64,000 bases of DNA, taken from assembly GCF_014899185.1 (NCBI RefSeq), contig NZ_CP045201.1:790501-854500 (forward strand). Reading direction: 5' to 3'. Below, in pieces: positions 24,142 to 53,714 of this stretch (positions within the stretch are counted from its first letter, which is position 1; each line of letters starts with the position of its first letter). Source of the DNA: Pseudooceanicola spongiae. Lineage in GTDB: Bacteria > Pseudomonadota > Alphaproteobacteria > Rhodobacterales > Rhodobacteraceae. Below the pieces are notes generated by a model that worked only from the letters and a program-made list of their open reading frames with translations, searched no databases and was not told the origin of the DNA. Position numbers and translations under genes: made by a program.

Positions 24142-24157
24142 GCTCCGGCGGTAGGGA
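24142..24157 (+). repeat. Left attachment-site copy of the tRNA-Asn 3' end
   Basis: Sixteen bases identical to 53642-53657 of the tRNA-Asn gene, in direct orientation, with 18 of 19 matching if extended. The following CCGGAGC also lets the site fold as a 7-bp hairpin with GCTCCGG, so it may double as a terminator-like structure before CAAAACTTTTC. Confidence 0.65.
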
Positions 24158-24225
24158 CCGGAGCCAAAACTTTTCTCCCGTAAGTCATTGAAATATATGG
24201 CGATCTGTCGCTTCCATCCGTGCGT

Positions 24226-24247
24226 TATGTCACAGTCTTATGTCACA
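24226..24247 (+). repeat. Left recombinase-arm-type repeats
   Basis: TATGTCACA at 24226-24234 and 24239-24247, separated by GTCT. The same pair with the same 13-bp period occurs at the other end of the island (53563-53584). Confidence 0.6.
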
Positions 24248-24428
24248 CTTTCACCAAGGGGCAAATTTGCTGAAGACCCAGATGATCGTCGATCTGCCGC
24301 TGCGATTTATTGGGGGTGCCGGAGAGGGGGCCGCCTCGAATTGGGAGATCTCCCTGGCCATCAGCAACTTCACCGCTTCGCGGCAGGTTCGGTCTTGTTC
24401 TGGACCGTATTTCATGCGCTTTTGCCGC

Positions 24429-24582
24429 TGTCTGGTGCCCGCATTGCTGGGAGAATCGGGAAGCTGGTGAAACTCCGGCACGTGCCCAACGCTGTAAAGG
24501 GGATGGTCTTAGTTCATGCCACTGGAGCAATCCGGGAAGGCGCTTTGATCAGACGACCCTGAGTCAGAAGACCGGCCAGACA
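24429..24582 (+). ncRNA. Cobalamin (B12) riboswitch upstream of bluB
   Basis: Contains the class's conserved blocks in order. GGGAAGCTGGTGAAACTCCG is followed by a GCACGTGCCC-AACGCTGTAA segment. Next come GCCACTGG, CGGGAAGGC and the B12 box AGTCAGAAGACCGGCC (24562-24577). The ends pair as P1 (TGTCTGG 24429-24435 with CCAGACA 24576-24582). An alternative stem ACCGGC (24571-24576)/GCCGGT (24588-24593) overlaps the B12 box and is a likely switching hairpin. It lies 62 bp before bluB, so B12 should repress lower-ligand synthesis. Confidence 0.93.
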
Positions 24583-24644
24583 GCATAGCCGGTTGCACGC
24601 GGACAGTGCGGCGGGCGCTTTCAAGTATTGTTGGGGATCAAACA

Positions 24645-25325
24645 ATGCCAGAGATCTGCGCGCTGACGCAAGCCACGCCTTTTTCAGACGCCGAACGCGA
24701 CGCCGTTTACAAAGCCATCCATACGCGCCGCGATGTGCGCGACCAGTTCCTGCCGGATGCGATCCCGGACGAGGTGCTGAACAAGCTTCTGAATGCGGCA
24801 CACCATGCGCCCTCGGTGGGCTTCATGCAGCCGTGGAACTTCATCATCCTGCGTGCGCAGGAAGACCGTGACCGCATCTGGCAAGCGTTCAGCCGGGCCA
24901 ATGAAGAGGCCGCCGAGATGTTCAGCGGGGACCGTCAGGCGACGTACCGGTCGCTGAAGCTTGAGGGCATCCGCAAGGCGCCGGTGAACATCTGTGTGAC
25001 CTGCGATCGCACGCGCGGCGGCGAGGTGGTGCTGGGCCGCACCCACAACCGGGACATGGACCTCTACAGTACCGTCTGCGCGATCCAGAACCTCTGGCTT
25101 GCGGCACGGGCCGAAGGCATTGGCATGGGCTGGGTCAGTATCTTTCATGATGCTGACCTGAGGACTCTGCTCAACATTCCAAAGCGGATCGCGATCGTGG
25201 GGTACCTCTGCCTCGGCTATGTCGATGAGCTGTATGAGCAGCCCGAGCTTGAGGTCAAAGGCTGGGCCCGGCGCACACCACTGGAAGATCTGATCTTCGA
25301 GGGCAAGTGGCAGGGAGAGCCCTGA
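24645..25325 (+). CDS. bluB: 5,6-dimethylbenzimidazole synthase BluB
   Basis: Breaks down FMNH2 with O2 to make 5,6-dimethylbenzimidazole, the lower ligand of vitamin B12. The 226-residue nitroreductase-fold protein has the FMN-binding [11 protein letters not shown] and the BluB-typical [13 protein letters not shown]. It also has GMGWVSIF and the C-terminal [17 protein letters not shown]. The ATG at 24645 begins MPEICAL; an upstream frame to 24606 lacks a site. The cobalamin riboswitch directly upstream independently supports the assignment. No other cob genes are adjacent. Confidence 0.95.
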
Positions 25326-51544: not shown

Positions 51545-51755
51545 TCGCGAGCGGGCGGCCCCCAGCGTTGGGGGCTGCCGATCGAGGTGTTTCACCGCGT
51601 AGGGGGGGGGCTATCCGAAAATCTGAGCGCAAGCACGTTGACCGGTTACATAACAGTTGTTTTCGTACGCGCCGAATTGGAGAAAAAAGCCCACTTTCAG
51701 TAGGTTAAGGTTAGGTTTTGTTTGTGAGGTTACGGTTGGTGAATTTTGCTTGCTT

Positions 51756-53516
51756 CTATTCCGGGAAACCCCGTAGCAGTTCAATCGCATCCCGGAGTTT
51801 TGCCATCGGCGATGCCTTTCTGTACACGCGCTCGTGGGTGTCTTTGCCCTCATGACCTACGAGGTCCCTGACGATGCCTTCGTCAACTTCGCAATTTTCG
51901 AGTGCGTTCTGAACGTAGTGGCGGAGACTGTGGAATGTGAGCTTCGCACCATCCAGCCCGAGTGTTTCATCGACAATGTCTCGCATTCTCCGGCCCACCT
52001 TTCTGCCGAGGTTGCCCTTTGATTGCTGAGATAGATCAGGGAAAAGATACCGCTTCTTGGAGGATCTTGCCTTGGCAACATGCTCCAAGAAGCCCAAATT
52101 TATCAGGCTGCTGTGAATCGGAACTAGGCGGACAGATGACAGATTTTTTACGCGGCGGATCTCAGAATCTTCTATTGAAAAGCACATAATGCCGTCGACA
52201 TCTATGATGTCGGAGGGGGCGAGGCCGGCAATCTCCTCACGTCGGGCGCCGGTGACAGCACCAATCAATGGGCACCAAAAAATACCGTTGCGATATATCT
52301 TCGGCCCCGATCGGGTTTGAAATCGCTCAGAGTACGAGCCTTTCCATACGGGCGAGTCGAATAGCGTCACCAGCTGCTCTTCACTGAAAGCGTCTCGCTT
52401 ATCGCGTGCCCGCACGGTTTCCTTCCGCTTTAGCTTTCCGGGATTGAGCCTCCGGTCCACAGCGATTCCTTCACCATCCGCCCACTCTGCGATCTGCCCC
52501 AGGTGTTCCAAGTGCCGGTTGATGGTCCCAACAGACAGTCCGACCTTCTCAGCAGGCAAGGTGGCTGCCTTCGCCATGATCTGCTCGCGCGATGCCGTGC
52601 TATCTTTTGGGCTTTTGCCCCAACTCTTCGGGATCTGATAGACTGCTGAGCGAAAACTGGTGACATGAGATTGCCGGATTTCACTTACCTTTTGAATACC
52701 GGTCAGGAGCGTGAAGAGGGATGCGAAGCTTTGATATTGCCGGAGGGTCTTTTCTTCTATGCCGTCCTCGCGCTTGATCGCATTCATTCTTTCAACGACC
52801 GCAGTGATCGACGGATCGAGGCCGGTGTCCTCTACTGGTGCGGGGTTCTCAGCCTTAGGCGAAGGCGGTTCTGACACCTCAAGGAAGGAAGTCACGTTTT
52901 TTGCCAGTGTGTCGGCAACCTCTTCGATCGCGTGCAAGGCGTCTGGGTGGCGCTCCCAAGCTGCACGTTTCCCGGAGATCCAGAGGTTGGCAATCTTGGC
53001 ATAATCGAGAGCAGCTATGGTGCCCTCATGACCAGTAAGGTCCCGGTAATCCCGGCAAATGATGCGCCGGCGCGCCTCACTGGCCAAATCGCGGCGGATC
53101 AGCTCCACGTTGGATTTTATCAAATCGTCAGAGATTGAATGCCCCGGATCATTCAGGGCGGTTTCAGCCACATGCTTCCAGGCAGCAGCCATTGCTGCAT
53201 CATGGCGCGCATCATCAGCCGGTGAGAGAGAATCAACACGCCTCAAGAGCTGGAGCTGCTCAATTTTCTCATGCTCAACCTGCACAACGCGTGACAACCA
53301 TTTGCGCGCGTCTTCAGCCGTCATCTCTTTGGCGTTGACCTGATCCATAATGCTATCGCTCTCCGCAGTGATCTTGCGAGACAGCATAACAGCAATCCTG
53401 AAATCAGTCGTCCTCAGGGAGAGCCGGATATGTGCGATTCTTGTGGATTGTCGATGAATTAGCCGCCGCCATTGATAGACGTTCCCTCGCTTTGTGAGGT
53501 GGGGCTGACCCTTCAT
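51756..53516 (-). CDS. Tyrosine recombinase (integrase) of the island
   Basis: 586 residues, longer than typical phage integrases because of an extended N-terminal half (DUF6538-like start QPHLTKRGNVYQWRRLIHRQ, then a long helical region). The catalytic domain has R in TGARREEIAGL, H-x2-R in FHSLRHYVQ, H in VGHEGKDTHE and Tyr in ERVYRKAS. It lies 123 bp from the 3' end of tRNA-Asn and reads away from it, with the arm-type repeats in the gap. Confidence 0.93.
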   Translation of the reverse strand: MKGQPHLTKRGNVYQWRRLIHRQSTRIAHIRLSLRTTDFRIAVMLSRKITAESDSIMDQVNAKEMTAEDARKWLSRVVQVEHEKIEQLQLLRRVDSLSPADDARHDAAMAAAWKHVAETALNDPGHSISDDLIKSNVELIRRDLASEARRRIICRDYRDLTGHEGTIAALDYAKIANLWISGKRAAWERHPDALHAIEEVADTLAKNVTSFLEVSEPPSPKAENPAPVEDTGLDPSITAVVERMNAIKREDGIEEKTLRQYQSFASLFTLLTGIQKVSEIRQSHVTSFRSAVYQIPKSWGKSPKDSTASREQIMAKAATLPAEKVGLSVGTINRHLEHLGQIAEWADGEGIAVDRRLNPGKLKRKETVRARDKRDAFSEEQLVTLFDSPVWKGSYSERFQTRSGPKIYRNGIFWCPLIGAVTGARREEIAGLAPSDIIDVDGIMCFSIEDSEIRRVKNLSSVRLVPIHSSLINLGFLEHVAKARSSKKRYLFPDLSQQSKGNLGRKVGRRMRDIVDETLGLDGAKLTFHSLRHYVQNALENCEVDEGIVRDLVGHEGKDTHERVYRKASPMAKLRDAIELLRGFPE

Positions 53517-53560
53517 CTTGTCGTCCGATCCTTGTCAGGTACGGACGGAATTGCGACTAA

Positions 53561-53584
53561 GGTATGTCACATACCTATGTCACA
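53561..53584 (+). repeat. Right recombinase-arm-type repeats and palindrome
   Basis: TATGTCACA at 53563-53571 and 53576-53584, period 13, matching the left-end pair. The first copy also sits in the palindrome GGTATGT-C-ACATACC (53561-53575), a possible operator of the integrase promoter. Confidence 0.6.
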
Positions 53585-53639
53585 CCTACGAAGCCACTAG
53601 GCTAACTTCGCAATGTTTCCAATACCTTAAGAGGGGTAT

Positions 53640-53714
53640 TGGCTCCGGCGGTAGGGATCGAACCTACGACCAATTGATTAACAGTCAACTGCTCTACCGC
53701 TGAGCTACGCCGGA
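53640..53714 (-). tRNA. tRNA-Asn (GTT)
   Basis: 75 bases on the minus strand, including an encoded CCA. Acceptor stem TCCGGCG/CGCCGGA, D-arm GCTCAGCGGTAGAGC, anticodon loop CTGTTAA (GTT), T-arm GTAGGTTCGATCCCTAC. Its 3' end (53642-53657) is duplicated at 24142-24157 and serves as the island's attachment site. Confidence 0.97.

Follow-up and report, generated by a model that had tools for sequence, protein, structure and literature searches.

The stretch analysed here, hereafter the window, comprises 64,000 nucleotides of the Pseudooceanicola spongiae genome (contig NZ_CP045201.1, positions 790,501 to 854,500; coordinates below are those of the window) and holds a putative island at 24142-53657 that encloses the metabolic genes bluB and queC-F. 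ARAGORN found a sole tRNA gene in the window, tRNA-Asn(GTT) at 53640-53714 on the minus strand, which is the integration target. The 16 bp at the 3' end of this gene, GCTCCGGCGGTAGGGA (53642-53657, plus strand), recur exactly at 24142-24157 on the plus strand, as an earlier sequence-only reading of the window had claimed, and these identical copies are the only two in the 4,365,781-bp genome when both strands are searched at up to one mismatch. They form the right and left attachment (att) cores, attR and attL, and the element bounded by them was measured as 29,500 bp.

Just inside each core lies a pair of predicted arm-type sites, TATGTCACA repeated with a 13-bp pitch on the plus strand. The left pair (24226-24247) starts 84 bp inside attL and the right pair (53563-53584) starts 79 bp before the attR core; both are exact and share period and orientation, as the same reading had noticed. 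The spaced motif TATGTCACA-N4-TATGTCACA occurs exactly twice in the window and in none of 100 dinucleotide shuffles of it. It is not frequent in the genome either, where a search at up to two mismatches returned two copies, both at the element ends, and a reversed-pattern control returned none. Among 394 genomes drawn from 393 genera of the family, the pair with exact 9-mers and a gap of 3-5 bp was found in two, twice in P. spongiae itself (G000) and once, with a 5-bp gap, in G338.

A tyrosine recombinase gene (integrase) is present where it was expected, at 51756-53516 on the minus strand. Its 586-residue product matches PF00589 (E 9.7e-9, 35.7 bits, cut-off 27.1) and the integrase family phrog_1 (E 3.6e-25). 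The reading frame is open throughout, and R425/426, H529, R532, H555 and Y565, which we take to be the catalytic set, are invariant or nearly so in an alignment of 17 sequences. Family members with 54-58% identity over nearly the full length exist in named Rhodobacterales such as Rhodobacter capsulatus and Celeribacter marinus. A search of named-genome contigs with the integrase yielded no relative and no close copy of the whole island, the same search of viral contigs gave 11 distant relatives (25-37%) having neither core nor motif, and a search of phage proteins gave weak matches only.

The metabolic genes occupy the left end. A cobalamin riboswitch (24416-24594, plus strand; RF00174, 105.9 bits, gathering score 31.5) lies upstream of bluB, which encodes 5,6-dimethylbenzimidazole (DMB) synthase (24645-25325, plus strand; TIGR02476, 292 bits, cut-off 150). 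On the minus strand follow queF, encoding a type II preQ1 synthase (25381-25842; TIGR03139, 149 bits, cut-off 86.9), queE (25862-26575; TIGR03365, 360 bits, cut-off 206), queD (26569-26922; TIGR03367, 92.8 bits, cut-off 89.25) and queC (26922-27629; TIGR00364, 174 bits, cut-off 150). All five protein identities come from curated equivalog models scored above their cut-offs. Both gene sets lie inside both boundaries, which supports the proposal that they travel on a recombinase-bounded unit. The further proposal that the whole preQ0/preQ1 pathway is aboard stands for QueD, QueE, QueC and QueF; the scanned island proteins include no recognised FolE (the genome was not searched for folE), so the pathway's first step would be the host's.

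Origin of the cargo and the tRNA-Asn site in relatives

Strong QueC matches were found in two of the 22 genus genomes sampled, P. spongiae and G014, with a weak match (32%) in G002; in the family sample they were found in 10 of 129 genomes, P. spongiae included, with six further weak matches. Of 14 genus genomes searched for BluB, 3 had it at 62% identity or more. TGT, on the other hand, is encoded by 21 of the 22 genus genomes and by all 20 of good quality, and its presence without queC suggests that most sampled genus members salvage queuosine precursors.

To place the que genes, a QueCDEF tree of 87 rows was built by a quick method without bootstrap; 13 of the rows have no QueF, and G164, G091 and G159 were left out because they had one called que gene or short contigs. 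The window sequence stands beside Puniceibacterium antarcticum with a Shimodaira-Hasegawa-like approximate likelihood ratio (SH-aLRT) of 99, and a clade of the window with G014, the sole other strong carrier in the sampled genus, was rejected (approximately unbiased test, p-AU 3.8e-6). Correspondingly, the window Que proteins are 88-95% identical to those of P. antarcticum and 71-83% to those of G014, whereas the right-flank kinase shares 74% identity with its G014 counterpart and 64% with that of P. antarcticum. The conflict between these two orders of kinship points to horizontal transfer. The kinase of the genus member G007, which also stands at 64%, weakens this comparison, as it is as distant as that of P. 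antarcticum. Horizontal acquisition of the que genes is thus supported by sequence comparison, from a donor that may lie inside or outside the genus. The nearest BluB relatives are metagenome proteins (up to 83%) and that of Octadecabacter antarcticus (80%), compared with 62-63% in G001 and G007. bluB, like queC-F, likely arrived by horizontal transfer. The que cluster of G014 is on another contig than its tRNA-Asn/MBL site, and reading of the surrounding 19.9 kb, together with a comparison against the window proteins, showed neither bluB nor an integrase there.

The best 80 of 519 QueC relatives in named genomes were examined for their gene neighbourhoods. All 80 loci carry queC-D-E in this order and 67 have queF behind it. 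A BluB relative is near que in one locus, at 38% identity only, and there is no close BluB within 10 kb in any of them; an integrase-like open reading frame (ORF) is within 10 kb in two, both from Yoonia maritima. DNA matches to these loci cover the que block alone, 25375-27711 at most, plus one 99-bp match at 38975. Five of the 80 loci (L169, L176, L203, L218 and L225) have a tRNA gene no more than 450 bp upstream of queC, for Val, Lys, Arg, Arg and Met respectively, and these are possibly old integration sites. Judged by the amino acids that queuosine tRNAs carry, none of the five is a queuosine tRNA. L218 comes from a record titled Nocardioides marinus, although its que cluster groups within Rhodobacterales, and the assembly is likely mislabelled or contaminated.

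On the right of the island lies the MBL-fold gene at 53.8 kb. In each of the 21 other genus genomes sampled, as well as in G023, a relative of it adjoins a tRNA-Asn that has the same 3' end. The other side of tRNA-Asn is variable: groups of up to five genomes have some genes in common, as delineated by a rough gene caller, and five of the 21 genomes (G004, G010, G011, G012 and G013) have an integrase at the site. Since the MBL gene is constant beside tRNA-Asn and the other side varies and carries integrases, the tRNA-Asn gene is a hotspot for integration whose right flank is ancestral. In none of the relatives sampled do bluB and queC-F occupy this position. Neither of the two counter-signs that the sequence-only reading had named was found, namely frequent occurrence of the paired motif or these genes kept here by related strains that lack the phage and integrase part. 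Farther to the right and outside the island, the interval from the kinase gene to a tRNA-Met near 67.9 kb contains, at 62285-65231, a phage-like gene (phrog_857) and a long ORF that leaves the window.

A probable single integrative element and rival accounts

We consider it very probable that 24142-53657 is one integrative element of its own tyrosine recombinase, with bluB and the que genes enclosed. The integrase would recombine the 16-bp cores, so that the element inserts into and excises from the tRNA-Asn gene, which stays intact because the right-end core copy belongs to it; the excised circle would bear an arm pair, the core and the other arm pair in succession. The unit would be mosaic, combining a regulation and replication module of phage origin with a relaxase-like gene lacking its start, insertion sequences (IS) and metabolic cargo. 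The riboswitch-preceded bluB and queF-E-D-C would have entered the lineage horizontally, as the phylogeny suggests. A TGT-bearing and likely precursor-scavenging host would presumably gain the ability to make preQ1 itself, and likewise DMB for B12, and excision of the element would remove bluB and queC-F again.

The remainder of the island fits such a mosaic. An A+T-rich stretch (about 48-52% GC) at 28568-31132 on the plus strand holds three uncharacterised ORFs. They have no Pfam match; one belongs to phrog_14906, a phage family of unassigned function, and another has a weak DpdH-like match. IS3-family transposase ORFs follow on the minus strand (31202-32921), with a partial second copy in tandem (577 bp, 99.8% identical); a 95% match to this IS3 lies on a plasmid of Loktanella salsilacus. 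Directly beside them starts a relaxase-like gene (32963-34294, plus strand) with a Mob_Pre domain. Its Pfam match is above cut-off and its MobV match below, and it aligns to its sister copy, described below, from residue 54 on, so it does not have the complete relaxase that integrative mobilizable or conjugative elements carry. The other cargo comprises a BetI-like TetR regulator (minus strand), a choline-type ABC binding protein and an alpha/beta hydrolase (both plus strand) at 34478-37078, a photolyase-related protein (DPRP) at 37396-38904 (minus strand), and a VOC-family protein and an AIPR/AbiU-like protein at 39721-41803 (minus strand). The AIPR/AbiU-like gene (40559-41803) is a candidate phage-defence gene. 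The phage-derived early module at 43446-51697 encodes a cytosine methyltransferase, a GapR-like protein, a helix-turn-helix repressor, an O-like replication protein and others. Capsid, portal, terminase and tail genes were not recognised among the island proteins scanned, so the island does not have the gene set of a complete prophage; of the genes relevant to a satellite of the phage-inducible chromosomal island (PICI) type, regulator, integrase and replication genes are present and no packaging gene was recognised among the same proteins.

Elsewhere in the genome a sister element of 31.2 kb lies at tRNA-Gln (G000:C1:4106914-4138154; loci L115 and L110), bounded by a 27-bp direct repeat, with its integrase beside tRNA-Gln at 4.138 Mb and a TGTGTCACC pair 110 bp inside the right end. 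Its 4.1166-4.1247 Mb segment matches window positions 43446-51697 at 86-94% DNA identity in three pieces, window positions 47284-48215 (the repressor gene) having no match. The two integrases are distant from each other (32%). As most of this 8-kb module recurs in two elements with unlike integrases, the phage-derived module has been shared between elements. The sister element also carries a longer relative of the window relaxase-like gene (37% identity) and, by reading only, copper-related cargo.

A possible but clearly less probable account is that the island is a decayed composite, in which the integrase and the att and arm ends are real, bluB, the que genes and other cargo were recombined in later, and the whole is now immobile. 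On the boundaries this account and the single-element reading overlap. The IS copies, the relaxase-like gene without a start, the exchange that has evidently occurred between the phage modules of two elements, and the absence of a close BluB beside que in the named loci would all be expected of a composite; the integrase that is open over 586 residues with conserved catalytic positions, and the cores and 9-bp arm motifs that are identical at both ends, are not what decay would be expected to leave.

It is very unlikely that the element grew by successive insertions at tRNA-Asn around resident bluB and queC-F, with the right-hand phage part alone being mobile. The sequence-only reading had offered such growth around host genes as an alternative. 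In its GC content of about 60-63% the bluB-que block resembles the left flank in the window, and queCDE(F) is elsewhere an ordinary operon with no integrase detected within 10 kb in 78 of the best 80 named loci. Nevertheless, the alternative is disfavoured by the que phylogeny, which groups these genes with P. antarcticum and rejects a clade with G014, and by the scarcity of que among the genus members sampled. Moreover, att core and arm pair are placed beyond bluB rather than between que and the phage part, and the sole other strong QueC carrier has queC away from the right flank that all 21 other genus genomes share.

Several observations weigh against the single-element reading. A close CDF gene (57-71%), the gene of the left flank, is present in nine relatives on another contig or 141 kb away (G006) and in none beside tRNA-Asn. 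The 0.8-kb spacer at 23335-24141 has no match in any of 39 stretches retrieved by position, of which 32 come from relatives. An empty tRNA-Asn site that shares the left flank was seen in no sampled relative, the right flank being common. Excisionase and conjugation genes were not recognised among the proteins scanned. A plasmid DNA search matched the que block and the IS copies only, covering at most 9% of the island; as neither plasmids nor named-genome contigs yielded a close copy of the whole island, its movement as one unit is something we infer.

If the island is one integrative element, a more speculative and rather doubtful extension is that it acts as a switch for two cofactor economies. 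Its arrival would turn a queuosine-salvaging, DMB-dependent lineage into a producer of preQ1 and DMB, its excision would reverse this, and the precursor pathway would serve its own host tRNA-Asn. The accessible part of the literature describes queuosine tRNAs as those with GUN anticodons. Because tRNA-Asn(GUU) is a queuosine-modified tRNA, the element would install a precursor pathway for the tRNA that it occupies. A significance of the target tRNA as a queuosine tRNA is entertained in this speculative reading alone, given that the five tRNA genes upstream of queC in the named loci include no queuosine tRNA.

Paired repeats in other tRNA-adjacent integrase elements

From their sequence and placement, the TATGTCACA pairs are best read as predicted arm-type sites of the integrase. 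Comparable elements were collected by an integrase search in 40 relatives, which gave matches in 14 genomes, P. spongiae included. Of 28 integrase loci fetched, a tRNA gene was present in 18 and absent from the fetched stretch in 10. Removal of two duplicates (L066 and L068) and addition of the tRNA-Asn sites of G010 and G011, for which longer stretches were used, left 18 elements, 16 of which are in the genus, three of these in the P. spongiae genome (one being a fragment, at tRNA-Tyr); the remaining two, in G025 and G032, represent other families of the class. An element passed the repeat test if a sequence of 7 bp or more was repeated exactly in tandem, at 10-14 bp pitch, 20-150 bp from the tRNA 3' end.

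The test was passed by 13 of the 18 elements, the window element counted, and by 13 of the 15 examined first; the three added later (L045, L050 and L065) do not reach 7 bp, two of them having imperfect TGTG pairs. As controls, 6.3% of 6000 random segments passed, 200 dinucleotide-shuffled sets gave a mean of 0.43 and a maximum of 3 passing elements out of 15, and 3 of 17 tRNA-Asn sites of the family without a detected integrase passed. TGTG, TATG or TGTA is contained in 11 of the 13 motifs, for example TATGTCACA, TGTGTCACC, TGTGAACCA, TGTGGACCT, TGTAACCA, TGTGTATCA and TTTGTGCAC. The tRNA-Asn site L099 of G021, where no integrase was detected, has a TTTGTGCA tandem repeat that resembles the arm motif of G010 and G011.

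An attL candidate was present in the sequence for 8 of the 15 elements, and in seven of these the element's own motif recurs 76-136 bp inside attL, where fewer than 0.01 such matches would be expected by chance within 250 bp. The far-end pair is near-complete in three, namely the window element (18 of 18 positions), the G013 element at tRNA-Cys (12 of 12) and the G018 element at tRNA-Leu (16 of 18). This repeat grammar is found beside tRNA-Asn, Gln, Leu, Val and Ser, and more weakly at Cys, with a mostly element-specific motif. The generality of the pattern is reduced by the five elements below the 7-bp threshold, by two passing motifs that are unlike the rest (GACTTTAGCA and TCTTTGG), by far-end motifs that are only partial in four of the seven supporting elements, and by the sister element, whose left arm motif is weak (12 of 18 positions, expectation 0.16). 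That the TATGTCACA pairs are instead operator or promoter elements without a role in recombination seems very unlikely: the right pair, between the integrase gene and the tRNA, is at a possible integrase promoter position, but the left pair has no adjoining integrase gene and yet is identical and similarly spaced from its core (84 versus 79 bp), and other elements have different motifs at equivalent places. For islands with a short att core, the paired arm-site grammar offers a practical route to the distant boundary.

Comparison with known systems

The window element shares the defining layout of tRNA-targeting islands with a tyrosine recombinase: the integrase adjoins an intact tRNA gene, the tRNA 3' end is duplicated as a direct repeat at the far boundary, cargo lies between, the site behaves as a hotspot and, as far as the sequence allows one to judge, arm-type repeats lie inside both ends. 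It differs from them in cargo that includes a riboswitch-led bluB together with queF-E-D-C. The phage-derived module resembles Rhodobacterales temperate phages, as the methyltransferase is 62% identical to that of Paracoccus phage Pyei1 and 56% to that of Rhodobacter phage RcapNL, and one early gene is 41% identical to its counterpart in Paracoccus phage Pben1; unlike these phages, the island has no structural or packaging gene recognised among its scanned proteins.

The closest precedent comes from the symbiosis integrative and conjugative elements (ICESyms) of Mesorhizobium. According to the portions of the reports available to us, all Mesorhizobium ICESyms carry queCDE (PMC8627217), and the attP of ICEMlSymR7A contains five IntS arm-type motifs of one consensus, TGKTGGTATC (PMC11963761). 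The window element is like them in its tyrosine integrase, its predicted arm-type sites of a single consensus and its queCDE genes. It differs from them in that ICESyms bear conjugation and symbiosis genes, whereas no conjugation gene was recognised among the window proteins scanned, in that five TGKTGGTATC sites compare with four TATGTCACA copies seen in the window element, and in that the latter has queF and bluB too. Among the papers listed by our search of the open literature, and within the text that it reached, the Mesorhizobium ICESyms came up as a precedent and no other such island did. bluB itself is described as patchy, being present in 25% of genomes in a large survey as far as its accessible text goes (PMC6461909).

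The island offers a clean and well-delimited example of B12 lower-ligand and queuosine-precursor synthesis framed as cargo of one integrative element. Because the sampled genus members keep TGT and mostly lack queC, dependence on scavenging and its reversal by gene transfer become testable through a single island. Compared with known systems, its layout follows the ordinary pattern of tRNA-targeting integrative elements; que genes on integrative elements are known, and the pair of cofactor traits is unusual.

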